DNA of 64,000 nucleotides from Pseudoalteromonas rubra (GTDB taxonomy: Bacteria; Pseudomonadota; Gammaproteobacteria; Enterobacterales; Alteromonadaceae): contig NZ_CP013611.1 in the NCBI RefSeq assembly GCF_001482385.1, positions 310,001 to 374,000 of the forward strand, in the 5' to 3' direction. Positions 8,184-64,000 of the stretch are shown piece by piece (the first letter of the stretch is position 1; each line of letters starts with the position of its first letter). The notes beneath the pieces were generated by a model. It was not told where the DNA came from. It ran no database searches and saw only the letters and a program-made list of their open reading frames with translations. The position numbers were made by a program, and so were the translations under genes.

Positions 8184-9200
8184 ATGAGCCAGACAACACC
8201 TCATAGCTCGAATGACACAGGACAGGCCTTTGAGCCAATTGTCGTCGCGGATATTGGCGGTACCAATGCCCGCTTTGCCGTCGTAACCCACTACGAATCG
8301 AGCAACAATCAGTTTATTATTAGTCATCAGTCTACGTATCCCAGCGCCGAATTTCCCTCTTTTGAAACTGCCATTAGCCGTTACCTCAATGAACTCCCAA
8401 TAGCCAAACCAACACGCGCGTGTTTAGCCGTTGCGGGCCCCGTTAAGGCTCAACAGGTTTATCTGACGAATCTCGGTTGGCAGTTTAACAGTCAGGATAT
8501 TAAACAGCAGTTCGGTTTTAATGAATTGGCTGTGATCAATGACTTTGCAGCCTTTGCTTACGCAGCGCCGTATCTAGACCCAAAACAAAATATAGAAATT
8601 AAATCGGGTCAGGCACAGGCCGGCGCCAACATCGCAGTGATGGGACCTGGCACTGGCTTTGGTGCCGCATGTCTGACCAGAGACATTAATGGTAGTGCTG
8701 TTATGAGCTGTGAAGCTGGCCACATTAGCCTCGCTGCAGTGACCGAACTGGACCAGCAACTGTTGGTGGCTCTGAAGCAGGAGATTGCACATGTCTCTGT
8801 TGAAGAGGTGTTTTCGGGGCGTGGATTGGCACATTTATATCAAGCCATGGCTAAAGTAAAAGGCCGTACCGCAGAAAGGTTGACTGCTGCACAGATCAGT
8901 GAGCGCGCATCCGAGTGTGAGATCTGCGATGCCACGTTGAATCATTTTTGTGACTGGATTGGCAGCGTAGCTGGCGATCTGTCGTTAACGTTTGGTGCGC
9001 TTGGAGGCGTATTTATTGGTGGTGGGATATTGCCGCGAATGGCAGAGCGACTCAAATCAAGCCAGTTTGTTGAGCGTTTTGTGACTAAAGGGCCTATGAG
9101 TCAGTACGCAGGCCAGATCCCAGTCACCTTAGTTGTGCAGGAAAATATTCCTTTGATTGGTGCCGCAGCGTGTCTACATGAGCGTGCGAGCATCAGATAG
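8184..9200 (+). CDS. glk: Glucokinase (ROK-unrelated bacterial Glk family)
   Basis: The start chosen is ATG 8184, giving 338 residues, because the N-terminal phosphate-binding motif VADIGGTNAR lies at about 21-30 as in other Glk proteins; the open frame extends further upstream without homology. Further motifs are VAGPV, INDFAAFAYA, GPGTGFGAA and GGVFIGGGILPR, all typical of hexokinase-fold glucokinases. It phosphorylates glucose with ATP in the cytoplasm, feeding glucose-6-phosphate into the Entner-Doudoroff enzymes encoded next door. A LacI-type regulator begins 15 bases after its stop, so the two are probably cotranscribed. Confidence 0.93.
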   Translation: MSQTTPHSSNDTGQAFEPIVVADIGGTNARFAVVTHYESSNNQFIISHQSTYPSAEFPSFETAISRYLNELPIAKPTRACLAVAGPVKAQQVYLTNLGWQFNSQDIKQQFGFNELAVINDFAAFAYAAPYLDPKQNIEIKSGQAQAGANIAVMGPGTGFGAACLTRDINGSAVMSCEAGHISLAAVTELDQQLLVALKQEIAHVSVEEVFSGRGLAHLYQAMAKVKGRTAERLTAAQISERASECEICDATLNHFCDWIGSVAGDLSLTFGALGGVFIGGGILPRMAERLKSSQFVERFVTKGPMSQYAGQIPVTLVVQENIPLIGAAACLHERASIR

Positions 9201-10228: not shown

Positions 10229-10249
10229 ATCCCATTTTTATACTTGCCC

Positions 10250-10280
10250 AAAGCCCGGCCATTACTGGTCGGGCTTTTTT
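10250..10280 (+). terminator. Rho-independent terminator after the LacI regulator
   Basis: Stem AAAGCCCGGCC / GGTCGGGCTTT with a six-base loop and a T tract to 10280. It isolates the glk-regulator unit from edd. Confidence 0.85.
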
Positions 10281-10330
10281 GTTTGTTATTTGTTCATTTG
10301 TGAAATTTAGACTAAATTTAACGGAAAGGT

Positions 10331-10344
10331 TGACACCGGTGTCA
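10331..10344. promoter_or_regulatory. Operator TGACACCGGTGTCA, copy 1 upstream of edd
   Basis: Identical to the glk operator. It overlaps a perfect -35 hexamer TTGACA (10330-10335); TAAATA at 10355-10360 is a possible -10 with a long 19-base spacer. Binding here would block RNA polymerase. Confidence 0.8.
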
Positions 10345-10363
10345 GAAACGTGAGTAAATATAG

Positions 10364-10377
10364 TGACACCGGTGTCA
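10364..10377. promoter_or_regulatory. Operator TGACACCGGTGTCA, copy 2 upstream of edd
   Basis: A second identical copy whose centre is 33 bases (about three helical turns) downstream of copy 1, so two dimers could sit on the same DNA face and act cooperatively. Confidence 0.8.
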
Positions 10378-10431
10378 GGTTGGGGTGAGAGACAACCTGA
10401 TAGCGTACCTTTGAACGGGTAAATCAAAGCT

Positions 10432-10459
10432 GCTCAGTACAGGTAGAGCTGTACTGAGC
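10432..10459 (+). promoter_or_regulatory. Leader hairpin in the edd 5' untranslated region
   Basis: Perfect 10-bp arms GCTCAGTACA / TGTACTGAGC with an eight-base loop, followed by CTTTTCCTCT, sit between the operators and the edd start at 10489. It could be an attenuator-like or mRNA-stabilising structure. The T run is interrupted, so it is a weak terminator at best. Confidence 0.5.
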
Positions 10460-10488
10460 CTTTTCCTCTAACAATAGAGAGTTGAATT

Positions 10489-12342
10489 ATGTTGCATCCT
10501 CGAATTCATGAAGTCACTCAACGCGTTATCACTCGCAGTCAGCGATCTCGTCATGCCTATCTTGAGCGTATCGAACAAGCAAAAAAACAAACTCGAGTCA
10601 GAGCCGGACTAGGCTGTGGTAACCTGGCACACGTGATGGCGGCCTGTTCGAGCAGTGACAAAACCAGATTAAAAGCTGATGAGCAGCCAAACCTGGCCAT
10701 CATCAATTCGTACAACGACATGTTGTCTGCCCACGTGCCTTACAAAGAATATCCGGATCAAATCAAAGCGATTGCCGAAAAATACGATGCGACCGCACAG
10801 GTTGCCGGTGGTGTACCGGCAATGTGTGACGGTGTAACGCAGGGTCGCGATGGCATGGAGCTGTCTTTATTTTCACGTGATGTGATAGCAATGTCGACAG
10901 CGGTTGCACTCTCACACGACGTGTTTGACGGTGTGTTCTGTCTGGGGGTGTGCGACAAGATTGTTCCGGGACTGTTGATTGGCGCACTATCTTTTGGCCA
11001 CCTTCCCATTTACTTCTTACCTGCGGGACCGATGCAGTCGGGTATTCCAAACAAAGAAAAGGCGCGTGTTAGACAAAAATTTGCACAGGGCCTGGTGAGC
11101 CGCGAAGAGCTATTGGAAGCGGAAAGTGCGTCTTACCATAGCGCAGGTACCTGTACTTTCTACGGTACCGCTAACTCAAACCAAATGCTCATGGAAATTA
11201 TGGGTCTGCATTTACCGGGCAGCTCATTTATCAACCCTTACACTGAACTGCGCGAAGGCCTGACAGCCAGCGCAGTAGAAACCATGTTGAAGCAACTCCA
11301 GGGTGATGACAAAGCGAATAGCCTGGCGGAAGTGGTCAGTGAGAAAACTGTGATTAACGGATTGGTTGGTCTGTTAGCGACGGGGGGGTCAACTAACCAC
11401 GCTATTCACCTGGTTGCGATGGCAAAAGCGGCTGGCGTCGAAATCACGTGGAAAGACATGGCTGATTTATCGGAAGTTGTGCCGTTGCTGACGCGTATTT
11501 ACCCAAATGGCTCAGCCGATGTGAATCACTTCCAGGCTGCTGGTGGTATGGGATTCCTGATGCGTGAGTTGCGTGATGCGGGTTACCTGCACAATGACGT
11601 AAAAACCATTGTCGGCGAAGGCCTGGATGCATACACCAAAGAACCTGTATTGGATGTCGATCCTTCACTCATCATGACGGACAGCAAGGGTCCTGCAAAA
11701 GTGAAGTGGATTGATTGCCCGGTAGATTCTCTGGACGAAGATGTACTCAGACCCGTTTCTAACCCATTCAACAATCAAGGTGGCTTACAGCTACTGAGTG
11801 GAAACCTGGGTAAATCAGTGATTAAAGTGTCGGCCGTTGCAGAGCAGCACCAGGTGGTGTCGGCACCTGCCAAAGTATTTAGTTCACAAGCCGCACTGCA
11901 AGAAGCTTATACGCGAGGCGAACTTAATCAGGACTTTATTGCGGTTATCAAAGAGCAAGGTCCTAAGGCAAAAGGGATGCCGGAATTACACAAATTGACA
12001 CCGGTCATGGCGAGTTTGCAGGATGAAGGCTTTAAGGTTGCCATCGTGACAGACGGTCGTATGTCAGGCGCCTCAGGCAAAGTCCCTGCGGCTATTCACC
12101 TGGCTCCGGAAGCCGTTGAAGGTGGCCCGATTGCGAAAGTACGGGAAGGCGATTTGATCACATTAGACGCACCAAAAGGTGAGCTGCTACTGCATGTCAG
12201 CGACGAAGAGCTTGCCCAGCGCGAGATTGAACTAACGGAAGTTGGTACAACCTTTGGTACAGGCCGTGAGTTATTTAGCGGCTTTAGAAATATTGTCAGC
12301 AGCGCCGATTTAGGTGCGAGTGCATTCGGCATAGAAGAATAA
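10489..12342 (+). CDS. edd: Phosphogluconate dehydratase (Entner-Doudoroff)
   Basis: The protein has 617 residues, close to the length of E. coli Edd. It belongs to the IlvD/Edd iron-sulfur dehydratases: [12 protein letters not shown] (about 108-119), CDKIVPG (155-161), GSTNHAIHL, and the C-terminal [19 protein letters not shown] are all present. It converts 6-phosphogluconate to 2-keto-3-deoxy-6-phosphogluconate in the cytoplasm. The eda gene starts 23 bases after its stop and gapA follows 17 bases after eda, so the three are one operon under the double operator. The upstream zwf-pgl genes are not in the window. Confidence 0.96.
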
Positions 12343-47318: not shown

Positions 47319-48131
47319 ATGAAGAAAGAGTATTTAGCAAGAATGTTTGATATAGCGGGTGCGGAGAAAGTCGATATATTAACTTTAGAACACGCATTCA
47401 ATTTTGTTCACGGGGGCGAGTTCGATGTGGTCCTGATGCGAGTTGAAGCTCAGGAAAGTGTTGATTTTTGGTGGGAGAGGCAAAGTGAACTCGGTTTGAA
47501 CAGGCCTGAGTACTATACTGGTAGCAGGAACAAAGAGGCAACATCCAGCAAGTCACAGCGAGCCCTGGGTAGTGAGTGTAACGCAAGACCAAAGCGATAT
47601 TTTAATTCAGCGAAAGGTGTCAATTCTGGGCTCAGGCAAACACCTTACTATACTTTCTTTGAACGAGAGTTAAATGTCAGAATACTGGAGCGTGATCAGG
47701 ACCTGGAAATGCGTATCGCATCTCAGTGTGAGTACCCGCCGTCGACCGGGAAACATTTTAGCTTTACACCGCATGCAAATTCTATTTCTTATGCACATGC
47801 TGGTAATTGTTGGCCAGTAAAGGAAAACTGTTTGCAAACGGCCGCATTTCTTACTGTTGAAAATACAACAAATACAGCCGGGTTTAGGATCTGGGATTAT
47901 CTGCCTGAAAGCCGTGGAGAACTGGATGAATTTATTGCGATGCATGAAAAGGATGAAGGCAGAGCTCTGGCGTTTCTTCAGCAGTTCAAAAGCCTGGAAA
48001 TTAACCCTCAAGAAGGGGATTTATGTATTTTCAACTGTCGTAAAATGCACGGTATACCAAGCGCTAATACATTGAGAAAGACTATTGGTTCATTCTTCAT
48101 TAAAGAAGACGGCTGGCGCATATTTAACTGA
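47319..48131 (+). CDS. Unknown protein, possible 2-oxoglutarate/Fe(II) dioxygenase-like fold
   Basis: The start has GAGGGA directly upstream; 270 residues, no signal peptide or membrane segment. The C-terminal half reads like a prolyl-4-hydroxylase-type jelly roll: PHANSISYAH (His152, Asn154, His160), LTVENTTNTAGFRIWDYLPE, EINPQEGDLCIFNC, then His244 (MHGIPSANTLRKTIGSFFI) with Arg253 where the 2-oxoglutarate clamp would lie. The usual H-x-D is H-x-N here, so activity is uncertain. It may belong to the metabolite locus to the right because both carry the same palindrome. The family call is tentative. Confidence 0.45.
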   Translation: MKKEYLARMFDIAGAEKVDILTLEHAFNFVHGGEFDVVLMRVEAQESVDFWWERQSELGLNRPEYYTGSRNKEATSSKSQRALGSECNARPKRYFNSAKGVNSGLRQTPYYTFFERELNVRILERDQDLEMRIASQCEYPPSTGKHFSFTPHANSISYAHAGNCWPVKENCLQTAAFLTVENTTNTAGFRIWDYLPESRGELDEFIAMHEKDEGRALAFLQQFKSLEINPQEGDLCIFNCRKMHGIPSANTLRKTIGSFFIKEDGWRIFN

Positions 48132-53845: not shown

Positions 53846-54075
53846 CTTGAGTGTATCCTCATTCTATCGATAAAAATGTACAGGCAATTGAGCGTTTATC
53901 TGAGGCGCACCTATTAGAAAAGATTTCATCGTTCTCTACATTGAAATGAAAACGGGTTCATTGCGTGAACCAGACATATAAAAATTTAAATTCAGCTGTA
54001 CGTATCACATTTTAGGCTTCTCTGTGAGGTGAACGTACGTTTAAATTATGACTAAAGATGAATAGTGAGGTTGGT

Positions 54076-54447
54076 TTGAAAACTTATGGCTTTACGATCA
54101 AGCTTCGTAATGAAGCTGCGAAAGAGCGCTACTTCCAGTATCACAAGTCCGTGTGGCCAGAAGTACACGATGCGCTTGATGATATAGGTGTTCGCTCGGT
54201 ACAAATTTTCTTTATGGATGAGCTGACGTTATTCATGCATATGGAAACAGAAAATGACTTTGTGCCATATGACAGTTTTGCCGCGGCGATGGGGTTGCAC
54301 CCCAGAGTTCAGGGTTGGGACGATATCATGCACATGGAATTGTTAGAGAGATGGCCAGAAAACGACAGCAAAACCGAATGGGCCGTAATGAACAAGATTT
54401 ATCACTACGACACAAGAGACGTAGAAATAGAAGGAGTTGACCGATGA
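54076..54447 (+). CDS. RhaM-like (L-rhamnose mutarotase family) protein 1
   Basis: I set the start at TTG 54076: GAGG lies five bases upstream and this aligns the N-terminus (KTYGFTIKLR) with that of the next gene (KSYGFSINFK). ATG 54058 is the alternative. The 123-residue product is of the dimeric alpha/beta-barrel RhaM family, with the YHKSVWPEVHDAL box (catalytic His and Trp-Pro-Glu of the mutarotase), the strand FMHMETENDF and the C-terminal NKIYHYD. True RhaM enzymes have about 104 residues and work on rhamnose; no rhamnose catabolic gene is nearby. Its stop overlaps the start of the second copy by four bases. Confidence 0.78.
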   Translation: MKTYGFTIKLRNEAAKERYFQYHKSVWPEVHDALDDIGVRSVQIFFMDELTLFMHMETENDFVPYDSFAAAMGLHPRVQGWDDIMHMELLERWPENDSKTEWAVMNKIYHYDTRDVEIEGVDR

Positions 54448-54803
54448 AATCTTATGGATTCAGCATTAATTTCAAAGACGATGCCAGTCGTGAACACTAC
54501 GAAGCGCTTCATCGAGATGTTTGGCCTGAGGTGAAGGATGCCTTTGAGAAAATGGGCATTAAATCGATGCAGCTTTTTCATATGCCGCCTTTAAAATTGT
54601 TTATGTATATCGAAGCCGATGAGCGATTGGTTATTGAGCGCGACTTTAAACAGTATGTGAATATCGGCCCTAAAGTTAAAGAGTGGGATGAGTTGTGTGG
54701 AGGTTTATTAAAGCGCCTGGAGAATAACCAGGGGGTCACAGATTGGCTACCCATGGAAAAAATCTATGCGTATGACAGGCGTGATCATCGCGTCGAATTT
54801 TAA
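54444..54803 (+). CDS. RhaM-like (L-rhamnose mutarotase family) protein 2
   Basis: This 119-residue paralogue of the preceding gene has LHRDVWPEVKDAFEKMGIKS and the C-terminal MEKIYAYDRRDHRVEF. The ATGA overlap with copy 1 implies coupled translation, which fits a heterodimeric barrel. Because the family is a ferredoxin-like dimer with a central pocket, two different subunits could shape a new pocket for a non-sugar ligand. Role in the locus unknown; it precedes the N-hydroxylase by 255 bases. Confidence 0.78.
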   Translation: MKSYGFSINFKDDASREHYEALHRDVWPEVKDAFEKMGIKSMQLFHMPPLKLFMYIEADERLVIERDFKQYVNIGPKVKEWDELCGGLLKRLENNQGVTDWLPMEKIYAYDRRDHRVEF

Positions 54804-55058: not shown

Positions 55059-56399
55059 ATGCAAATACTGGACGTGGTTGGCGTAGGTTTTGGCCCTTCA
55101 AACCTGGCCTTAGCGATTGCTATTGAAGAGTATAACCAAAGTGCCAATACACCTTTGTCGATGAGTTTTATTGAACGCTCAGCAGAGTTCATTTGGCACA
55201 AGGATATGTTGATTAAAGACGCCACGATACAGGTGTCATTTATAAAGGACTTAGTAACGCTGCGTAACCCTGCCAGTGAGTATAGTTTCTTAAGTTATCT
55301 GAAAGCACAGGGTAGATTGCTGAAGTTCTCAAATCTGAAAACGTTTAACCCAACTCGTATGGAGTTTTGTAAGTATTTTAGATGGGCCGCCGACAAACTA
55401 CCTGGTGTTGTGCAGTATTCAAAACGTGTGATAGATGTGCAGCCTGTTGGCACTGAGTCAGTGAATCTATGGCAGGTATTTTATCAACATGTGGAAAGCG
55501 GTGAGATAGAGTCAGTGTTTTGTCGAAATCTGGTTATTGCGACAGGTGGAACTCCTAAATTTCCGGAGAATATCCAACCTTTTCCAGGTAAAATTTGGCA
55601 CAGTTCCGGGTTTTTATCGAATATTGCGCAGTTTGAACACACAGGTACTCCATCATTTTGCGTTGCTGGTGGAGGCCAGAGTGGAGCGGAGATCGTCGAG
55701 TACCTGCATGCCAACTTCCCGCAGGCAACCGTGCATTCCGTCTTTGGTGGGTTTGGCTACAAACCGGCCGATGAAAGCAGCTTTGTGAATGAGATTTTTG
55801 ATCCAGACGCAGTGGATGTGTTTTATAACGTCGCAGCTAAACGCCGGGATGCACTGCTTGCGGAGTTGAGCCAGACTAACTATAACGTCGTAGATATTGA
55901 GTTAATTGATAAGCTTTATCATATTCATTATCAGGAAGAGGTCGAGGGCGTGCCACGTTTACATTTTCGTCGTATGACTCGTGTCGAAGACGCCAAAGTC
56001 ACATCGAATAAAGTCAGGGTGACACTAAGAGATATCCACAATGACAAGGCCGTAACAGAGCACTTTGATGCGTTGATTATGGCAACAGGGTATGAGAGAG
56101 CGTCTCCCCACCCTTTGCTTGATTCATTGTATGGCTTGATTGAGTTTGAGCAAAACAAGCCGATTATCTCTCGGTACTTTTGTGTCAAAACGCAAGCGCA
56201 TGTTAATGCCAGGATTATATTGCAAGGGTTCAGTGAAAATGCACATGGGCTTACTGATACCTTACTATCGACTCTGTCTGTTCGCAGCGAAGAGATCTTG
56301 CAAAATATTCTTGATGTTCCCGTCAATAATGAAAGTGTAACTAAGCCCGCGGCGACGCAGGATAGCGCGGTTAAGGAGCGTAATTATGAATTCATTTGA
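55059..56399 (+). CDS. Flavin-dependent L-lysine/L-ornithine N-monooxygenase
   Basis: The 446-residue protein is of the IucD/PvdA/SidA family: FAD-binding VGVGFGPSNLALAIA (residues 7-21), FIWHKDM and ATIQVSFIKDLVTLRNP substrate/FAD loop, NADPH-binding AGGGQSGAE (about 203-211), and C-terminal IMATGYERASPHPLL. Such enzymes hydroxylate the side-chain amine of lysine (N6) or ornithine (N5). Here there is no siderophore synthetase; instead a DAO-type oxidase follows (14-base overlap) and a cupin/MetRS fusion ends the block, so the product N6-hydroxylysine is more likely used for N-N bond formation. AGGA lies 11 bases before the ATG. Confidence 0.9.
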   Translation: MQILDVVGVGFGPSNLALAIAIEEYNQSANTPLSMSFIERSAEFIWHKDMLIKDATIQVSFIKDLVTLRNPASEYSFLSYLKAQGRLLKFSNLKTFNPTRMEFCKYFRWAADKLPGVVQYSKRVIDVQPVGTESVNLWQVFYQHVESGEIESVFCRNLVIATGGTPKFPENIQPFPGKIWHSSGFLSNIAQFEHTGTPSFCVAGGGQSGAEIVEYLHANFPQATVHSVFGGFGYKPADESSFVNEIFDPDAVDVFYNVAAKRRDALLAELSQTNYNVVDIELIDKLYHIHYQEEVEGVPRLHFRRMTRVEDAKVTSNKVRVTLRDIHNDKAVTEHFDALIMATGYERASPHPLLDSLYGLIEFEQNKPIISRYFCVKTQAHVNARIILQGFSENAHGLTDTLLSTLSVRSEEILQNILDVPVNNESVTKPAATQDSAVKERNYEFI

Positions 56400-57444
56400 T
56401 GTCGTCGTGATCGGTGGTGGTGTGGTTGGAGCGGCAGCTTTCCATCGCCTGGCTCAGCAAGGTTTGAAGGTTGCTTTGCTTGAAAAAGACAGACTATGTC
56501 AGGGAGCAACTAGTTACTCTGGTGGGATCGTACGCTGTTTTCATTCGGATCCGGTGCTAAGTGATATGGCGGTACAGGGTTATCACTATTATCGCCAGTT
56601 TGCAGAGTATACCGACAGTCACTGTTCGCTCACAGAAACCGGTTTTATTTATCTGGATAAACCAGAAAGAAATCAGGCGCTCAGGAGTGAAGTTGACCGG
56701 TTGTCTTCAGTTGTAGAAATGCACTGGTTAACTGATCAGGATGCGAAAAATCAATTTCCTTTTTTGAACATCTCATCCGGACAAGGTGTTGTTTATGAGC
56801 CTGGTGCCGGCTATATGGACACCTATGAAACAACAATCGCCTGGGCAAAAGCGGGTGAGAGAGCTGGGGGCGTTGTGATTGAGGGGTGTCAGGTTGAAAG
56901 GCTGTTAATGGCAAAAGACCAGTTTCAGGGCTTACAAACCAATATGGGACCTATCTATGCAGCCAAGGTTGTGGTGTGTGCGGGACCATTGTCCACTACT
57001 TTATTAGAACAAGCCGGCTTACAGACCTCAGTGTATGCTCAGGAAATTCAGGTAAACCGATTTAAAAGTGACGTTTTCCCGAAACAACACCCGGCTTACA
57101 TTGATGACGAATATAACCTGAATGGGCGTCCAGACAGAGAGGGCGCGGTCCTGGTCGGGTACCCGACATTTAACCGCCAACTGGACTTGCCTAAATCGCC
57201 TATTGCTGCAAACCACACTCAACTGATTTGCGAGCAGGCGGATAAGCGATTTAGCTGGGCTGAGGCCATGCAGAGTTTGGGAGGCTATCGGTGTTTAGAT
57301 TCCTATACCCAGAACGGGCATGGAGAAATCAAGTTTGTGAACGAAAACGAGAACATTGTTGTCGCAGCCGGATTCAGTGGTGGCGGATTTAAGCTTGCCC
57401 CGGCGATTGCGCAACGTGTAGACGAATTAATAAATCATAAGTAA
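56386..57444 (+). CDS. DAO-family FAD-dependent amine/amino-acid oxidase
   Basis: The 352-residue protein has an N-terminal dinucleotide fold VVVIGGGVVGAAAFHRL and the family segment GATSYSGGIVRCF, VVCAGPLSTTLLEQAG, and C-terminal VAAGFSGGGFKLAPAIAQRV. It belongs to the glycine/sarcosine/D-amino-acid oxidase group. It overlaps the N-hydroxylase gene by 14 bases. In actinobacterial hydrazine pathways a DAO-family partner cleaves the N6-(carboxyalkylamino)lysine-type hydrazine to release hydrazino acid plus a semialdehyde; that role is the natural hypothesis here. Without that context, a sarcosine-oxidase-like enzyme would be the default call. Confidence 0.85.
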   Translation: MNSFDVVVIGGGVVGAAAFHRLAQQGLKVALLEKDRLCQGATSYSGGIVRCFHSDPVLSDMAVQGYHYYRQFAEYTDSHCSLTETGFIYLDKPERNQALRSEVDRLSSVVEMHWLTDQDAKNQFPFLNISSGQGVVYEPGAGYMDTYETTIAWAKAGERAGGVVIEGCQVERLLMAKDQFQGLQTNMGPIYAAKVVVCAGPLSTTLLEQAGLQTSVYAQEIQVNRFKSDVFPKQHPAYIDDEYNLNGRPDREGAVLVGYPTFNRQLDLPKSPIAANHTQLICEQADKRFSWAEAMQSLGGYRCLDSYTQNGHGEIKFVNENENIVVAAGFSGGGFKLAPAIAQRVDELINHK

Positions 57445-57458
57445 CAAGGACTAAAGTG

Positions 57459-58382
57459 ATGAACAAAGTAATTGAAGGTGTATTGCCAGTCTGTTTAACT
57501 CCTTTCGATGCAGCATACGATATTGACGAAGAGGATTATCGCAAGCAAATTGATCACGTATACAACGCCGGCGCTAATGGGTTTGTGATTGGCCAGGTGT
57601 CTGAATTGCTCCGACTCAACACCTTTGAGCGTCATAGTTTAATTGAACTGGCTGTTGCGCAAAACGAAAATCGGGGAATTGTTATTGCCAGTACCGGTGC
57701 TGAGAGTACCAGGAACGCCATTGACTATTCTTTGCATGCCCAAGACGCCGGAGTAGACTGCCTGCTACTTATGCACCCCACTACGACTGCGCTGAGTGAA
57801 GAGCAAATGTATAACTATTATCAGGAGGTGATCACTCGCGTGTCGATCCCAGTGATGATCCACCATGCTAAAAGTTATGCGAAGATCCCATTATCGCAGG
57901 AAAATCAGGCCCGACTGGTAAACGAGTTTGGCCAGGATAAGGTATTGTTCAAGCCTGAATCGTCGCCTACGCCGCCCAAACTCAGCATCTTGCGAGATAT
58001 GTCAGAGGGTAAGGCGAAGATCTTTGAAGGTGATGGCGGCATGATGCTGCAAGACTGTTATCGACGAGGACTCGCGGGGACTATCCCGGCTGCTGACACC
58101 GTCGAAATTTTGGTTTGTCTGTGGAGTTTGCTCAAAGCAGATCGAGTTGATGATGCTCGAAATATTGCGCATGCACTGTCCTACCTGATGTGCCTGATGA
58201 TGAATAGTGTCGATTGCTATCAGACGATCGGTAAACATACCTTGAAACGCCTGGGTGTATTTAAAAGTGATCGTGTACGCCCGCCGCTGGATTATATTCC
58301 GGATCAGGAAACGCTGAGTGAAGTTGACAGAACTTTTGACTACATTTACTCCTTGATGGAGCAGGTAAAATGGCAAAAATAA
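57459..58382 (+). CDS. DapA/N-acetylneuraminate-lyase family aldolase
   Basis: I prefer ATG 57459 (AAGGA eight bases upstream) over GTG 57456, giving 307 residues. The TIM barrel has the family start GVLPVCLTPF, a QVSELLRLNTFERHSL loop where DapA has GTTGE, and the Schiff-base Lys165 in LFKPESS. The tyrosine that DapA uses as general acid is replaced (VMIHHAKSYA instead of Y-N-x-P), so it is not a standard dihydrodipicolinate synthase; it may make or cleave a keto acid aldol with a different acceptor. Its end overlaps the next aldolase gene by 13 bases, so the two enzymes are likely coupled. Confidence 0.8.
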   Translation: MNKVIEGVLPVCLTPFDAAYDIDEEDYRKQIDHVYNAGANGFVIGQVSELLRLNTFERHSLIELAVAQNENRGIVIASTGAESTRNAIDYSLHAQDAGVDCLLLMHPTTTALSEEQMYNYYQEVITRVSIPVMIHHAKSYAKIPLSQENQARLVNEFGQDKVLFKPESSPTPPKLSILRDMSEGKAKIFEGDGGMMLQDCYRRGLAGTIPAADTVEILVCLWSLLKADRVDDARNIAHALSYLMCLMMNSVDCYQTIGKHTLKRLGVFKSDRVRPPLDYIPDQETLSEVDRTFDYIYSLMEQVKWQK

Positions 58383-59395
58383 CCTTGCTAGATTGTACCC
58401 TCCGGGATGGGGGGTATCACAATAATTGGGACTTTTCTGACAAATTTGTTGAGCAATATTTGGCGGTGATGTCTGGTTGTGGTGTCGATATCGTAGAGTT
58501 AGGTTATCGCGATGCAAATCCCGATAACCGTCGTGGGCGGTTCGCTAACTGTTCGGACGAATTCTTAGCAGGCTTACCTTTGCCGGCAGGTTTGACTTAT
58601 GCCGTGATGTTAGATGCCAAGCAGGTCGTGTCGAGTACGCAAGCGCTCGATGAGTTCATGTGTCGCTGTATAAAGCCTGCAAGTGAGTCAGTGGTTGACT
58701 TAATGCGAGTGGCGATTAATTACAAAGAGGTCAGTAAAGTCAGTCCGTTGATCAGACGCCTGGCTGCGCAGGGCTACCGTGTAGCGCTCAATTTAATGCA
58801 AGTGACCAATGGCGTTTTAGCTGAACTATCACACAGCCTTCTGGAACTAGAAGAACTAGAGCTGGTCGAGTCAGTTTACTTTGCAGACTCGTTTGGTTGC
58901 ATGACTCCGCTGGATATTCCAAAAGTGGTCGCCAGTATCAGAAAAGGATGGCAAGGAGAAATCGGTTTTCATGGTCATGACAACAAGGGACTGGCTCTGC
59001 TTAACGCGCTTGAAGCCACAAATACAGGTATAACCTGGATAGATTCGACGGTAAATGGCATGGGGCGCGGCGCTGGTAATGTAACGACTGAGTCGTTGCT
59101 CAATGCTTTATATTATGAGCGATATAAAGCGCATCATGGGCATATGAACCAACTGATTGCATGTCACATAGAGCCACTTATGGAAAAGTACAAATGGGGC
59201 ACTAACCTGTTTTATTACATTGCGGCGGAGAAAAAAATTCATCCTATGTATATACAGGTGCTGATCGCGAATAAGCACCTGGACAGGATGGCTTTATTGG
59301 CTGTGCTCGACGAGTTAGCGCAGCACGATGCAAGCCGATTCCGGGCTGATGTTTTGGATATGTGTCTGGAAGCGAGTGTAGCTGAGCCTGCCTAA
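58370..59395 (+). CDS. HMGL-like (4-hydroxy-2-oxovalerate aldolase type) enzyme
   Basis: This 341-residue TIM-barrel metallo-enzyme of the DRE superfamily begins ITLLDCTLRDGGYHNNWDF, with Asp8 and the DGG triad, and binds divalent metal through GFHGHDNKG (His201 and His203). TVNGMGRGAGNVTTESLL is the C-terminal family signature. Relatives catalyse aldol cleavage or Claisen-type condensations of alpha-keto acids. The closest pattern is 4-hydroxy-2-oxovalerate aldolase, but no meta-cleavage pathway or acylating aldehyde dehydrogenase is adjacent. In the locus it probably builds or trims the carbon skeleton with the overlapping DapA-type enzyme. Confidence 0.85.
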   Translation: MAKITLLDCTLRDGGYHNNWDFSDKFVEQYLAVMSGCGVDIVELGYRDANPDNRRGRFANCSDEFLAGLPLPAGLTYAVMLDAKQVVSSTQALDEFMCRCIKPASESVVDLMRVAINYKEVSKVSPLIRRLAAQGYRVALNLMQVTNGVLAELSHSLLELEELELVESVYFADSFGCMTPLDIPKVVASIRKGWQGEIGFHGHDNKGLALLNALEATNTGITWIDSTVNGMGRGAGNVTTESLLNALYYERYKAHHGHMNQLIACHIEPLMEKYKWGTNLFYYIAAEKKIHPMYIQVLIANKHLDRMALLAVLDELAQHDASRFRADVLDMCLEASVAEPA

Positions 59396-59422
59396 GAGCA
59401 GGTGCGATATAAGGGTGAATGT

Positions 59423-60094
59423 GTGAACAGAGTAGAGGATTTTGATGTTGTCGTGTTTGATATGGACGGTGTCCTGATAGACTCGAATCGTAGCAAAGTG
59501 CAAGCAATGCAACGCACAATTGACGAGTTGCATACCGAGCTGAGCGCGGAGTTTATTGGCTACTTTGAATCCAATTTTGGCAAATCAAGACAGCAACACT
59601 TTGGTGTGTATCGGGACATGCTATCCGCTCTGCTTGCGGGTAATTTGTTTGCAAAGCTGGACCTTGGGTTTTCCACCTACAGCGAAGAGGCGTATTTGTC
59701 TGCACAGGTGATCCCCGGGGTCAGGCAATTGCTCGCAATGCTTGAAAGTAAGGGGGTCACACTTTATGTGGCGACTGGCTCACCTCAGGAAAAAGCATGT
59801 ACTGTACTTCAAGACAAAGGCCTGAGTCGATTCTTTAAGGCGATATATGGTGGACCCGTAGACAAAGTATCAAACCTTAGAAAAATACAGGGTGCCGAAA
59901 GTACCAAAAGGATCCTGTTCATAGGTGACTCAATTCAGGATATAAAAAGCAGTGAAGCATGTGACCTTAACTTTGCGCTGTTCGCCCCTTATTCATTACA
60001 CAGCAAGGCGTCTCTCATGGCATTAAAAACAGAACGTTGGGTAGCTGAATTGGACAGCTTTGACAGTTTGTTACCTGACGAAACGCATGTTTAA
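59423..60094 (+). CDS. HAD family hydrolase (phosphatase-like)
   Basis: Starting at GTG 59423 (AAGGG seven bases upstream) gives 223 residues; GTG 59402, seven bases after the previous stop, is the alternative. The haloacid dehalogenase motifs are intact: nucleophile in VFDMDGVLIDS (Asp13-x-Asp15), motif II YVATGSP, and motif IV LFIGDSIQDIKSSE. The cap lies between motif I and II, the usual type for phosphoglycolate phosphatase and beta-phosphoglucomutase. It probably dephosphorylates an intermediate of the locus. Confidence 0.85.
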   Translation: MNRVEDFDVVVFDMDGVLIDSNRSKVQAMQRTIDELHTELSAEFIGYFESNFGKSRQQHFGVYRDMLSALLAGNLFAKLDLGFSTYSEEAYLSAQVIPGVRQLLAMLESKGVTLYVATGSPQEKACTVLQDKGLSRFFKAIYGGPVDKVSNLRKIQGAESTKRILFIGDSIQDIKSSEACDLNFALFAPYSLHSKASLMALKTERWVAELDSFDSLLPDETHV

Positions 60095-60105
60095 GTGGGT
60101 AGGTT

Positions 60106-60969
60106 ATGATGAAAAAGGTAAAAACGGATATTGCTTTAGTCGGCCCACTTAGTGGTCCTCGTTCAGATTATGGTCGCATGTTGGCTCAAGTCGCAGACAA
60201 ACTTAAGCACAGCGAAGGTATTGAGTGCGAGTTATTTGACGATGAAGCTCAACCTGACGCTATTGCGGCTTGCACCAGTCAAATTATTGGCTGCGGTGCA
60301 CGTGTTGTCGTGGGTCACCTCAATAGTTTTTGTGCAATGCTGGCTGCGCCTGTCTACCTTGAAAAAGGGATACCTCTGCTTTTACCGGCAGCAACCAAAG
60401 CTGAACTGACGCACTTTAAAAACGTATTTCGTATTTGTCCTGATGAAGGAAAAATGTTGGATATGATGGTGGCTGTGTTGGAAAAAACGCCACGCCTTGC
60501 GGTCTTTTGCGATGGTAGTCGCTACGGTGCACATCTTTTGCATTTACTGCGATTGCGGTTAGGGCGGTCGTTTTCTTGTGTTGATAAAAGCAGACTGGTT
60601 GTAGATACCCAGATAGACACTGTTCTGGCACTGGGCGTGCACCGTAACCTGGCTGAATTAATCTTACACTTGGATTTGAATAACAGAAGTACCAATGTGA
60701 TTTGCTGTGATGATGCGGCAGTCGATGAATTTGAACACATGGTGGCGCAGACTCGTCAACGGGTTAGTGTGATCTATCCGGTTGGAGGGTTTGAGGAAAG
60801 TGTTGAGCGCGCCTTGAGACTTGCCGACCAGTGTATGATTGAAGCGCCACGTGAACCGATGTCGTACTTGCAGCGCCATCAGGGGTTTTGTGATCGGGAA
60901 TACACGATGAGTGAATTTACACTCCGGCACCTCGACTTGCCCAACGCAGTGGTAAATGAATTTTATTAA
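60106..60969 (+). CDS. Cytosolic type-1 periplasmic-binding-protein-like domain protein
   Basis: The 287-residue protein has no signal peptide (it starts MKKVKTDIALVGPLSGPRSD) but shows the fold of Leu/Ile/Val-binding proteins: VGPLSGPRSDYGRML, DDEAQPDAIAACTSQIIGCG, VVVGHLNSFCAMLAAPVYLE, LLLPAATKAELTHFKNVFRI. It is shorter than typical binding proteins (about 350). A cytosolic copy in a biosynthetic operon suggests a ligand-responsive or chaperone-like role, by analogy with AmiC-type cytosolic binders. Start at 60106 or 60109. Function unknown. Confidence 0.65.
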   Translation: MMKKVKTDIALVGPLSGPRSDYGRMLAQVADKLKHSEGIECELFDDEAQPDAIAACTSQIIGCGARVVVGHLNSFCAMLAAPVYLEKGIPLLLPAATKAELTHFKNVFRICPDEGKMLDMMVAVLEKTPRLAVFCDGSRYGAHLLHLLRLRLGRSFSCVDKSRLVVDTQIDTVLALGVHRNLAELILHLDLNNRSTNVICCDDAAVDEFEHMVAQTRQRVSVIYPVGGFEESVERALRLADQCMIEAPREPMSYLQRHQGFCDREYTMSEFTLRHLDLPNAVVNEFY

Positions 60970-61140
60970 TATATTACTACCATGTGGCTTGTTTGCAGCT
61001 GTTTGGTTGGATGTTGGTGTCTTTTATGTTACAAACCAAATGGTTCTCATTTAATGTAGAACTTAAAGGAAAAGCTAATGTGCTTTGCATTGCGTGAAGG
61101 TGCAAAGACAGTTTAATTTCATTTTGCTAGGAAAGATCAA

Positions 61141-61908
61141 ATGAGTTTTGAAAATAAAAAGGTTGTGATTACGGGCGCAAGTCCGGACTTTGGGCAAACT
61201 CTGTCTATATTGTTTGCTCAAATGGGCGCAGAGTTATTTTTATCAGCCAGAACGCTAGAGAAGGTTGATGCGACGGCTAAGTTAGTCAAGGAAGTGGTTC
61301 CTGATGCCAAGATATCCACATTTCAGGTGGATGTATCTAAGCCCGCTGATATTGAAAAGTTTGCCCATGGTGTTCAGGAAGTGTCAGGTGAAGTGGATAT
61401 CCTGATTAATAACGCGTCTTACTGGCTCGATGGCCATCTGGCACAGGCTGATGATACAGGCATTGTCGAGACTATCAATTCAACGGCGACAGGTAGCATC
61501 TTAATGACTAAACACTTCCTGCCTTTATTGAAAAACTCGAAAACTCCGGACATTGTGTTTGTCAACAGTACAGCTAGCCTGGAAAACAACACACATTCGA
61601 CAGTCAATGAAGCCTTCAGTGCGGCCAAATCTGCCCAGTCTACCTTTGCGGATAGGTTACGTCATCGCATGAAAGGACAAGGCGTGCGCGTTATTTCTGT
61701 TTATCCACCAAATTTCGATAATCCTTCGCCGTTAGATGACGAGCAGTGGAATGAGCGTAGATCGCACACAGAATTGAAGTACCTGACCGCACGCAACGTA
61801 TTTGAGTGTATTAAATTTGCCCTATCTCAGGATCGGGTGTGCTCAATTGATAAGATTATATTAAGCAACAACAACGCGTCTGCGACGGAAGTGATTGACG
61901 AAGCGTAA
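61141..61908 (+). CDS. SDR-family protein 1, catalytic Tyr replaced by Phe
   Basis: This 255-residue Rossmann protein has VVITGASPDFGQTL as cofactor motif, where the usual T-G-x3-G-x-G has Asp at the middle glycine, and INNASYWLDG for the NNAG motif. At the active site the Y-x3-K pair reads F-SAAK (Phe159 from TTC, Lys163). A Tyr-to-Phe change removes the acid used by classical SDRs, so it is probably an inactive partner or performs other chemistry. The gene is 170 bases after the binding-protein gene and followed by a paralogue with intact Tyr. AGGAAAG precedes the ATG. Confidence 0.85.
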   Translation: MSFENKKVVITGASPDFGQTLSILFAQMGAELFLSARTLEKVDATAKLVKEVVPDAKISTFQVDVSKPADIEKFAHGVQEVSGEVDILINNASYWLDGHLAQADDTGIVETINSTATGSILMTKHFLPLLKNSKTPDIVFVNSTASLENNTHSTVNEAFSAAKSAQSTFADRLRHRMKGQGVRVISVYPPNFDNPSPLDDEQWNERRSHTELKYLTARNVFECIKFALSQDRVCSIDKIILSNNNASATEVIDEA

Positions 61909-62179
61909 TCACTTTGACCAGGCAAGGCATACTTAGTGCTTTGCCTGATCATTTAACTAATCAGTCGACAAGGACTGCGTTTCAAATGAGCCAGATAATG
62001 ACGGCGAGTCGTTGTAAATGGCTCATTACTACTGACTAAAGAAAAATATCCCTTTAGGTACAGGTCATTCAGAAATGGACAGAGTGATGTATGCGGCGCG
62101 CGTACAGGTAATGCTGTGTTCGACTAAAAGCATGTCTGGTGCTTTTTTGGTGCCAGAATACAAACTTGGAATATGGGAA

Positions 62180-62920
62180 ATGACTTCACAATTCAAAGAC
62201 AAGCGAGTACTCATTACGGGAGCCAGTCCGGATTTTGGTAGAATTCTTGCGATCCGTTTTGCTCAGCAGGGCGCTGAGGTATTTTTGGTTGCCAGAACGA
62301 TGGAAAAGGCTCAGCTAACAGCTGCTATGGTTCACAATTTTGTTCCTGAAGCCAGGCTACATTGCTATGGCGCAGATATGTGCTTTGCCGACCAAATCAC
62401 GTTACTCAAATCTCAACTGGAGAAAGACACCGACCATATAGATATTTTAATCAATAATGCAGGGTATTGGTTGCAAGGGTCGTTTTTGTCTGCCAAAGAT
62501 GAAGATATCGTACAGGCAATAAGCTCGACACTCACAGGCTCCTCGTTAATGACGAAAAGCCTGTTGCCATTGCTGGCGCGTTCTCACTGCCCGGACATTG
62601 TGAATATCTCCTCTGTGAGTGCGCTACCTACAACTTCAGAGCCGGCACATGAAGCCTATTCAGCGGCGAAAAAAGCAATGGCCACCTTTGCTTCACGGAT
62701 CCGTGACCGGATGGCTGGAAGTGGATTGAGAGTGATGACCATCTATCCGCCTAAATTTATTAATCATAGGCCCACCGAACAGGGGGAATGGCAAGAGCAC
62801 GCACAGGCAACTGAACAGCGCTATGTGACAGATAAAGATGTGTATCAGGCCATTAATTTTGCACTGTTACAGGATCGGGTTTGTTGTTTGAGCGATATCT
62901 ATATGAGTAATAACGCGTAA
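62180..62920 (+). CDS. SDR-family oxidoreductase 2
   Basis: I start at ATG 62180 because the fold begins there (QFKDKRVLITGASPDFGRIL); the open frame carries 35 more upstream residues of no homology. The 246-residue product is clearly related to SDR 1 (same GASPDFG motif, similar length) but keeps the catalytic YSAAK (Tyr160, Lys164) and INNAGYWLQG. It should be the active member, reducing or oxidising a carbonyl/hydroxyl in the pathway, possibly as heterotetramer with SDR 1. The cupin/MetRS gene starts 22 bases later. Confidence 0.87.
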   Translation: MTSQFKDKRVLITGASPDFGRILAIRFAQQGAEVFLVARTMEKAQLTAAMVHNFVPEARLHCYGADMCFADQITLLKSQLEKDTDHIDILINNAGYWLQGSFLSAKDEDIVQAISSTLTGSSLMTKSLLPLLARSHCPDIVNISSVSALPTTSEPAHEAYSAAKKAMATFASRIRDRMAGSGLRVMTIYPPKFINHRPTEQGEWQEHAQATEQRYVTDKDVYQAINFALLQDRVCCLSDIYMSNNA

Positions 62921-62942
62921 ATACGAGAGTGGGGGCGTTAAA

Positions 62943-64000
62943 ATGCAGGTCAAGGAATTAAGTAAATCAGAGTTAGAGAAGTTCTACAATGTATATTATC
63001 TAGGGCTTGATGAAGGCCTTGGAAAACCACTGGACACAGCACAGGGGATGGTGGGAATAGTCTCTGCGGGGACAAGTTCAACACCACATGCGCATCACGA
63101 AACCGAGTTTTTCATAATATTAACCGGCCAGGGGGTGTTTGATCATGGCAACGGTCAATGTGAAGCGATTGAAGCAGGGACTTTAATACTGTCAGAGTCT
63201 TTCCGTCGCCACAGTATCATCAACACCGGTAGTGAAGACCTGTTTTTTGTGAGCATTTGGTGGCGAGAAGCAGAGCTTGAACGCCAGGCTTTAGCTGGTC
63301 AGGCGATACCTGTGTTACCACGTAAAGCGATGTTAATCGCGACCCCACCTACGCCCAACGGCAACTTACATTTAGGTCATTTGTCTGGTCCCTATTTAGC
63401 GGCGGATGTGATGAAACGGTACTTGGTGTCTAAGGGAGTAGAGGTTAACTATGCAACTGGTTTAGACCGCAACCAGAGTTATGTTCCACTTAAGGCACAG
63501 CAACACGGACAAACCGCGGAACAAACTCTGACGCATTTTAGCGAAAGTATTAAGCAAACTTATCAGCTGGCGGGGATTGATTTAGATTTGATTATCTCGC
63601 CTGATGAAGCAGCTGACTATGATGCATATATTCAGGCTTTCTTCACTCAGTTGCACAGTAAAGGTGTGCTAATTGAGAAGGAAGAAGATGCTTATTTCTG
63701 TGATCAAACAGGGGAGTACTTGTTTGAGGCGTATATTAAAGGAACTTGCCCTCACTGTGGTGCCGGATCTGATGGGAGCGCCTGTGAACAGTGTGGACTG
63801 CCTAATCAATGTGTGGATCTGATAGCACCGCAATCCAAGTTTGGGAGTGAGAAGCTCTTGAAAAAGCGCATCAAGCGACTCTATCTGCCTGTACATAAGT
63901 ACATGGCTCAATTGAAGGCATTTTGGCAAAATACAGGTATGAAAGCGCATCTGATGCAGTTATGTCATGCATTGGAAGCCCATGATGATCTGGAAATCGC
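62943..64000 (+). CDS. Cupin-methionyl-tRNA-synthetase-like fusion, probable hydrazine synthetase (3' end cut)
   Basis: The frame is open from ATG 62943 (GTGGGGG upstream) to the window edge, 352 residues read. The N-terminal cupin (about 20-115) has a full metal site: His49-x-His51, Glu55 (TPHAHHETEFF) and His90 (FRRHSIIN). From about residue 126 a class I aminoacyl-tRNA-synthetase catalytic domain of the MetRS type follows: ATPPTPNGNLHLGHLSGPYL (HLGH at 143-146 equals HIGH), LKAQQHGQTAEQTL and the zinc knuckle CPHCG-x6-CEQCG. The cupin/MetRS architecture is known from hydrazine synthetases (Spb40, Tri28, PyrN), which join N6-hydroxylysine to an amino acid and rearrange the ester to an N-N bond. 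KMSKS and the C-terminus lie beyond the edge. Confidence 0.88.
   Translation, partial: MQVKELSKSELEKFYNVYYLGLDEGLGKPLDTAQGMVGIVSAGTSSTPHAHHETEFFIILTGQGVFDHGNGQCEAIEAGTLILSESFRRHSIINTGSEDLFFVSIWWREAELERQALAGQAIPVLPRKAMLIATPPTPNGNLHLGHLSGPYLAADVMKRYLVSKGVEVNYATGLDRNQSYVPLKAQQHGQTAEQTLTHFSESIKQTYQLAGIDLDLIISPDEAADYDAYIQAFFTQLHSKGVLIEKEEDAYFCDQTGEYLFEAYIKGTCPHCGAGSDGSACEQCGLPNQCVDLIAPQSKFGSEKLLKKRIKRLYLPVHKYMAQLKAFWQNTGMKAHLMQLCHALEAHDDLEI

Follow-up and report, generated by a model that had tools for sequence, protein, structure and literature searches.

A block of twelve genes on the chromosome of Pseudoalteromonas rubra is very probably a hydrazine biosynthetic cluster of the type known from the por cluster of Pseudomonas orientalis DSM 17489. 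The block occupies positions 52276-64991 on the scale of the window, by which we mean the whole 64,000-nucleotide stretch that was analyzed (C1:310001-374000 in a 5.91 Mb genome; contig NZ_CP013611.1). It encodes an amino-acid N-hydroxylase (NMO), a DAO-family flavin oxidase whose start overlaps the end of the NMO gene by 14 bases, and a synthetase in which a cupin domain is fused to a methionyl-tRNA synthetase (MetRS)-like domain. That the block forms an N–N bond is well supported by sequence, though not proven. The families to which the enzymes belong, the catalytic residues that they retain, and the recurrence of the gene set in other organisms are directly apparent. An earlier note on this DNA had singled out the three co-directional genes as cupin/MetRS-type hydrazine enzymes; Pfam matches and coordinates confirm the arrangement, and the family assignment is borne out by the conserved catalytic residues and by the grouping of the synthetase with hydrazine synthetases.

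In the synthetase, PF07883 at residues 40-106 is followed by PF09334 at 136-506, which is the cupin-then-MetRS order given for the s56-p1, triacsin, and pyrazomycin enzymes in the available text of PMC8664883. An alignment of 30 sequences, consisting of the window protein and others chosen from the 120 hits listed, shows H49, H51, E55, and H90 of the cupin domain and K458 of the KFSTS motif to be invariant (30/30). These residues match H50, H52, E56, H90, and K458 of PyrN, for which the same portion of text reports that the E56A and K458A variants are inactive or nearly so, that H52A has <3% activity, and that H50A and H90A keep ≈82% and ≈27%, respectively (PMC8664883). The N-terminal cupin and C-terminal MetRS-like fusion, the cupin ligands, and the catalytic lysine are likewise shared with PyrN/ForJ, Spb40, Tri28, AzaE, and DobE.

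To place the synthetase among its relatives, we aligned 103 rows of the MetRS-like domain and inferred a quick maximum-likelihood tree from them, with three MetRS as the outgroup and support given by the Shimodaira–Hasegawa-like approximate likelihood ratio test (SH-aLRT). The window protein falls with the hydrazine synthetases and apart from the three MetRS with an SH-aLRT of 100, or 96 for a 98-row set that omits two relatives whose match stopped short of the cupin. It sits inside a starred clade of ten rows, comprising itself and nine other relatives; given its long branches and unresolved forks, the tree is not to be relied on for deep order. The genome encodes its own separate MetRS, which is 25% identical to the fusion. 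A search with the fusion across 395 genomes of the family matched 122, mostly MetRS at 23-27% identity, and most of the cupin domain was covered only in the source genome and one other (G082). Precomputed Pfam domains reveal one relative in which the synthetase is fused to a DAO (P0081, 1061 aa) and another in which it is fused to an NMO (P0088, 1096 aa); together with a binding protein–DAO fusion on a Streptomyces plasmid, discussed below, these point toward the hydrazine reading.

The nearest solved structures to the NMO are MbtG, PvdA, and KtzI. The protein retains, in the motifs SFIKDLV and FVNEIF, the Lys and Asn of PvdA that we take to be the residues holding the amino-acid substrate, and since both are kept, we regard it as an amino-acid rather than a diamine hydroxylase. 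It scores 113-152 bits against the NMOs of actinobacterial loci, versus 256-353 bits against those of DapA-bearing proteobacterial loci. Two classes of DAO are found beside the synthetases, and the window DAO belongs to the high-scoring one (287-517 versus 36-97 bits), whereas the DAOs beside actinobacterial synthetases score in the other. With this difference in class, the earlier proposal, drawn from actinobacterial pathways, that the DAO cleaves its substrate to a hydrazino acid is not supported as it stands; given its separate score class and its low identity to relatives, the window DAO might cut either C–N bond.

To ask how widely the gene set occurs, we scanned 84,980 species genomes, which yielded 526 proteins related to the fusion; the 80 best of these, with L009, gave 81 loci that were searched with the window proteins by tblastn. 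Twenty plasmid records also had a synthetase match, and two of these were used, namely, L110 and a plasmid of Streptomyces sp. NBC_01483 (L109), the latter chosen for its DapA match. Setting L109 aside leaves 82 loci that were not selected for these genes; six of them (L035, L038, L040, L043, L044, and L048) have both a RhaM-like and an HMGL-like gene, and five of the six also carry DapA, the exception being L035, a 7 kb contig. The remaining 76 loci gave no match to RhaM, HMGL, or DapA at E 1e-5 (1e-4 for L110). L109 holds DapA-, HMGL-, and RhaM-like genes.

The set of DapA-, HMGL-, HAD-, RhaM-, and LivJ-like proteins with NMO, DAO, and synthetase is present in P. orientalis DSM 17489, P. entomophila, Pantoea, and Xenorhabdus, and further in a Legionellaceae metagenome-assembled genome (MAG; L048) and on the Streptomyces plasmid. 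The independent cases are fewer because L038 and L043 are near-identical; we count Pseudomonas/Pantoea, Xenorhabdus, the Legionellaceae MAG, Serratia, Streptomyces, and the window. The earlier note had not recognized the genes between the core enzymes from the actinobacterial clusters it cited, but they have precedent: seven other organisms combine the synthetase with RhaM-, HMGL-, and HAD-like genes, and six of the seven, the por strain included, also have DapA. The Legionellaceae MAG has the same NMO-DAO-DapA-HMGL-HAD-synthetase run as the window; Pseudomonas, Pantoea, and Xenorhabdus share another order, and L109 has a third. This partial reshuffling of a set that nonetheless stays together favors a functional unit. 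Identities between distinct lineages are 49-62% for DapA and 22-44% for NMO and DAO; the decarboxylase, at 50-52% between the window and L040, L043, and L044, is about as conserved as DapA. The por-type label takes five changes on the synthetase tree, and we conclude that the tailoring set travels with several synthetase lineages. As gammaproteobacteria and Streptomyces share tailoring genes despite divergent synthetases, a shared class of N–N metabolite is suggested. The block itself is not a product of chance, since all of its open reading frames (ORFs) are long, nearly all have family matches, and other genomes contain the same set.

The nearest tested set is the por cluster, which holds Por9 and Por11 (Matsuda et al., via the review PMC11705231). 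In the part of that review available, Por9 is described as an N-hydroxylase with specificity toward L-28, N5-hydroxy-L-ornithine; Por11 is said to have coupled L-28 or the N4-hydroxy derivative of 2,4-diaminobutyrate (DABA) with glycine in vivo; and the por product is listed as unknown (PMC11705231). Substrate use by por does not support the earlier expectation of N6-hydroxylysine esterified to glycine or glutamate, and the window synthetase differs from that of por in both pocket and clade. Our locus L044 is from this same strain, and its NMO, DAO, and synthetase genes are consecutive. Because the strain matches and the gene order fits the numbers 9, 10, and 11, L044 should be the por cluster and its trio Por9-11. 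The accession given for Apy10 in the review (PMC11705231), WP_057724699.1, directly follows that of Por9, WP_057724698.1, and may be that of Por10.

Both por and the window contain DapA-, RhaM-, HMGL-, and LivJ-like genes, a HAD, an SDR (short-chain dehydrogenase/reductase), a decarboxylase dependent on pyridoxal phosphate (PLP), and the three core enzymes. Their gene orders differ, the window has doubled RhaM and SDR1-type genes, and its NMO and DAO share 34-35% identity with their L044 counterparts. Since the window synthetase lies outside the starred clade that holds L044, the set is a relative of por, not an orthologue; to judge from these comparisons, it is a divergent variant of the por-type set and would represent a second, independent system beside por. 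The Legionellaceae MAG shares the central run without a binding protein or SDRs inside it; RhaM-like and LivJ-like genes lie nearby on the other strand, and its DapA is 57% identical to that of the window. Its synthetase falls in another clade, it has a GNAT-SDR fusion, a 2-oxoglutarate (2OG) oxygenase, and two further FAD enzymes, and no decarboxylase was found there. The Streptomyces plasmid carries the window's tailoring set along with NMO, DAO, and synthetase; beyond these, it has a gene of a 337-aa type, a second SDR type, an asparagine-synthetase-like gene, and the binding protein–DAO fusion, and no decarboxylase was found. At 15001-16849 of L109, the synthetase is in pieces across different frames, reflecting either sequence error or decay. 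We found no description of this tailoring set in the open-licence literature beyond mention of por; relatives may be among the 129 clusters mined from Actinobacteria and Proteobacteria in a Nature 2026 survey, to go by the accessible part of its text (PMC13061610).

Several observations weigh against a por-type assignment. Two of the four cupin ligands are weaker evidence than the others because the corresponding PyrN variants, H50A and H90A, stay active. The DAO is just 28-38% identical to the nine relatives compared. The window lacks two components of por, the 337-aa gene (present in L038, L040, L043, L044, and L109) and the second SDR type (present in these and L048), neither of which had a match better than E 0.1 in the window or in the downstream stretch L007; the 337-aa protein had no match in the whole genome, although a single query is weak evidence. 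Textbook reactions should not be assumed for the tailoring enzymes, as the DapA-like protein is without the usual Tyr and SDR1 is without the catalytic Tyr. The DapA marker, moreover, was found in 1 of 108 genomes of the genus and 1 of 369 genomes drawn evenly from the class, each time the source genome itself. The earlier note had asked whether the set co-occurs in other Pseudoalteromonas, which this result does not support, and the cluster may be a recent or silent acquisition.

The substrate of the window synthetase may also differ from that of por. Two positions of the amino-acid pocket, located by alignment to MetRS from what we take to be the pocket positions of the E. coli enzyme, are A378 and F425 in the window protein. 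The corresponding residues are F and H in L044, whereas the azaserine and dob organism loci (L070 and L078) have P378/H425. The latter two belong to a separate 51-row clade in our tree, which is drawn without PyrN, Spb40, and Tri28. Position 425 is H in 77 of the 100 non-outgroup rows and F in only four (the window, P0002, P0003, and P0006). The eight-residue pocket code of Matsuda et al. is named in the review, the available part of which does not list the residues (PMC11705231). Because the window synthetase lies outside the Por11 clade, in a different starred one, and has A378/F425 in place of F/H, its partner amino acid may be one other than glycine, and the odd pocket may widen the range of amino acids that hydrazine synthetases couple.

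By homology to enzymes that have been tested, we infer a route that begins with hydroxylation, proceeds through N–N bond formation, and continues with oxidative cleavage. A basic L-amino acid (Orn, Lys, or DABA) would first be hydroxylated on its side-chain nitrogen by the NMO. A second amino acid would then be activated with ATP and esterified to the N-hydroxyl by the MetRS-like domain, and the Zn-cupin domain would rearrange the ester to create the N–N bond. Oxidation of one C–N bond by the DAO would release, along with an aldehyde or keto acid, either a hydrazino acid or an amino acid bearing an omega-hydrazino group. The roles of the remaining proteins, and the product, are guesses: the two lyases (DapA-like and HMGL-like), together with the HAD phosphatase and one or both SDRs, could build or trim a short carbon chain for attachment to the hydrazine, a hydrazone or an N–N heterocycle being the likely outcome, and the PLP decarboxylase could remove a carboxylate. 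Characterized hydrazine pathways are mainly actinobacterial, and only some have a known product, according to the accessible part of the review (PMC11705231).

Sequence features of the tailoring enzymes vary in how closely they follow their families. The DapA-like protein is 49-57% identical between the window and the other sets; its Schiff-base Lys is kept in 6/6 sequences, and the Tyr of YNxP, for which three DapA-type enzymes elsewhere in the genome served as reference, is His in 6/6. The HMGL-like proteins keep the RDGG (arginine-aspartate) and H-x-H motifs, the first of which is not visible in the L035 fragment, and the HAD proteins keep DxD, as FDxDGV in 7/7. Phe replaces the catalytic Tyr in 7 of 8 SDR1-type sequences, six of them from other loci, and window SDR2 alone keeps Tyr. 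RhaM-like protein 1 is far under the YiiL equivalog cut-off (22.8 versus 99.6 bits). Homologues of the decarboxylase that are 50-53% identical are found in L038, L040, L043, and L044, and none was found by tblastn in L048, L035, or L109. Assignment of the decarboxylase as SspA/DndA was rejected, since PADLOC gave weak matches only. As for the genes that the window lacks, the 337-aa protein appears ATP-grasp-like by eye; the proteins of L038, L040, and L044 have no Pfam match, and that of L109 has an L-amino-acid-ligase match under the Pfam cut-off (E 0.0046). The asparagine-synthetase-like genes of L035 and L109 are 54% identical over 255 residues, and none is present in the window or L007. 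An asparagine-synthetase-like enzyme of albofungin is mentioned as a hydrazine transferase in the available part of the review (PMC11705231).

The most unusual part of the block is the LivJ-like protein without a signal peptide. It shares a fold and sequence profile with LivJ and Atu2422 of ABC importers; in contrast to these, it has no visible signal peptide at its N terminus (MMKKVKTDIALVGPLSGPR, read by eye only) and sits inside a biosynthetic block. No ABC permease or ATPase was recognized among the neighboring ORFs, some of which were searched against Pfam. A LivJ-like protein accompanies the window's class of DAO, and in L109 the binding protein is fused to a DAO-like oxidase domain. Presumably cytosolic, it might bind an amino-acid-like intermediate and work with the oxidase. 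We tentatively suggest, as one possibility, that it serves the pathway as a carrier or as a catalytic partner, taking up a reactive amino acid of the hydrazine or hydrazone kind from the synthetase or oxidase and passing it on, and that the DapA, HMGL, and RhaM proteins would then form a separate module leading to an undescribed product class. If so, a solute-binding protein has been recruited into a biosynthetic pathway.

Some type I binding proteins of the cytosol act as sensors, as AmiC does, and the LivJ-like protein could likewise control expression instead of serving as a carrier or catalytic partner. Its fold and the presence of LacI-type regulators among its Foldseek matches fit such a role, which we nevertheless think doubtful: the fusion to an oxidase domain in L109 speaks against it, and no antiterminator or regulator was recognized beside the gene among the ORFs listed.

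A further alternative concerns the pathway as a whole. In the classical hydrazinoacetic-acid cassette of s56-p1, azaserine, and triacsin, N6-hydroxylysine and glycine give hydrazinoacetate and then a carrier-bound hydrazone or diazo group; if the block were of this kind, genes downstream of it for an adenylation (A) domain, a peptidyl carrier protein, and a GNAT would be the loading module. The three core families are identical to those of the block, and a second cluster lies on the same strand at C1:377784-383835 (L007 5784-11835), 2.8-8.9 kb downstream of the fusion. This cluster encodes a WelO5-like 2OG protein, a hydrolase, a nonribosomal peptide synthetase (NRPS) A domain, a carrier ORF (8919-9200), PhyH, a second carrier ORF (10247-10507), a thioesterase, and a GNAT, such that the components from the A domain onward are 4.5-8.9 kb from the fusion. 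An adenylating enzyme and a carrier work alongside a GNAT in known pathways, as stated in the accessible text of PMC13061610, and a link between the downstream cluster and the hydrazine product is possible. We find the classical cassette an improbable description of this locus all the same. Neither the clade of the window synthetase nor the score class of its DAO is that of the actinobacterial enzymes (a comparison that does not extend to Spb39, Tri27, and Tri28), and the NMO is closer in score to those of DapA-bearing proteobacterial loci. Glutathione peroxidase, DUF924, glyoxalase-family, and GNAT genes intervene before the A domain. Among the seven other loci with RhaM and HMGL, A-domain matches occur only in L109, though L040 has a condensation domain ≈9 kb downstream of its synthetase.

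It is very unlikely that the block is a hydroxamate or citrate-type siderophore locus in which the NMO and decarboxylase supply an N-hydroxy diamine to a siderophore synthetase, for although these two enzymes are a siderophore pairing, the decarboxylase weakly matches a DABA decarboxylase model (167.8 bits; cut-off 900), and an A domain and carrier proteins lie 4.5 kb downstream, this leaves the cupin-MetRS fusion, the DAO, and the aldolases unexplained, PF04183 (IucA/IucC) has 0 matches in the genome, and another strong NMO already adjoins NRPS and isochorismatase genes. The IucA/IucC family was found in 2 of 14 control genomes. In this form, the siderophore synthetase that the earlier note named as counterevidence is absent. 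The other NMO, at C1:2454712-2455731, probably marks the siderophore locus of the strain.

All twelve genes of the por-type block are on the + strand according to the ORF list and the contig extension (Table 1). Seven of the eleven junctions measure -14 to +22 bases, and the remaining four gaps are 166-291 bases. Nearly all of the ORFs are above their Pfam cut-off, the LivJ-like protein falling just under its own. The earlier note listed the intervening genes correctly, but its coordinates omitted the decarboxylase and the RhaM pair, the latter being named in its text. Extension of the contig to the right, as it had proposed, recovered the rest of the fusion, which the end of the window truncates but the contig contains in full, followed by the glutathione peroxidase gene.

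Table 1. Genes of the putative hydrazine block, with positions on the window scale
Gene product	Position	Strand	Match or motif
PLP-dependent amino-acid decarboxylase, 496 aa	52276..53766	+	PF00282 E 1.4e-54
RhaM-like (L-rhamnose mutarotase family) protein 1	54058..54447	+	PF05336 E 1.3e-20
RhaM-like protein 2, overlaps RhaM-like 1	54444..54803	+	PF05336 E 3.7e-18
Amino-acid N-hydroxylase NMO (PvdA/MbtG/KtzI class), 446 aa	55059..56399	+	PF13434 E 5e-105
DAO-family FAD oxidase, presumed hydrazine C–N cleaving, 352 aa	56386..57444	+	PF01266 E 4e-51
DapA/NAL-superfamily enzyme, distinct subfamily	57456..58382	+	PF00701 E 2.7e-29
HMGL-like (DRE-TIM) aldolase, 3dxi relative	58370..59395	+	PF00682 E 1e-23; 3dxi E 6e-50
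HAD phosphatase-like, DxD motif	59402..60094	+	PF13419 / PF00702
LivJ-like type I binding protein, no signal peptide seen	60106..60969	+	30.6 bits, Pfam cut-off 31.7
SDR1, Phe at catalytic Tyr position	61141..61908	+	PF00106 E 8.7e-33; FSAAK
SDR2, paralogue that keeps catalytic Tyr; true start probably downstream of the one listed	62075..62920	+	PF00106 E 1.9e-32; YSAAK
Cupin-MetRS fusion, 682 aa	62943..64000, on to 64991 (C1:372943-374991)	+	PF07883, PF09334

The block lies in an accessory region, because in the stretches compared the chromosome stops matching its congeners at exonuclease I (40.1 kb). In blastn comparisons with six congener stretches, one of which ends ≈7 kb past exonuclease I, this gene is conserved and no match >150 bases is found to its right (from ≈40.1 kb). 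The right edge of the insertion was not found, the glutathione peroxidase and AstE-like genes being too poorly conserved to serve as markers, and megablast gave no plasmid match for the block. Two similar WelO5-like proteins, at window positions 47319-48131 and L007 5784-6650, flank the block; both are under the Pfam cut-off, and at a possible iron-binding motif the first reads H-A-N and the second H-A-D by eye.

Another hydrazine-type cassette is carried by L110, the Pantoea ananatis plasmid pOC5aB, which is typed as conjugative. It encodes an NMO, a stand-alone cupin, a MetRS-like protein, an FAD oxidase, and an ATP-grasp protein, as well as a binding protein, a GNAT, an MFS protein, and a small NIPSNAP protein, the fold of which we take to resemble that of RhaM.

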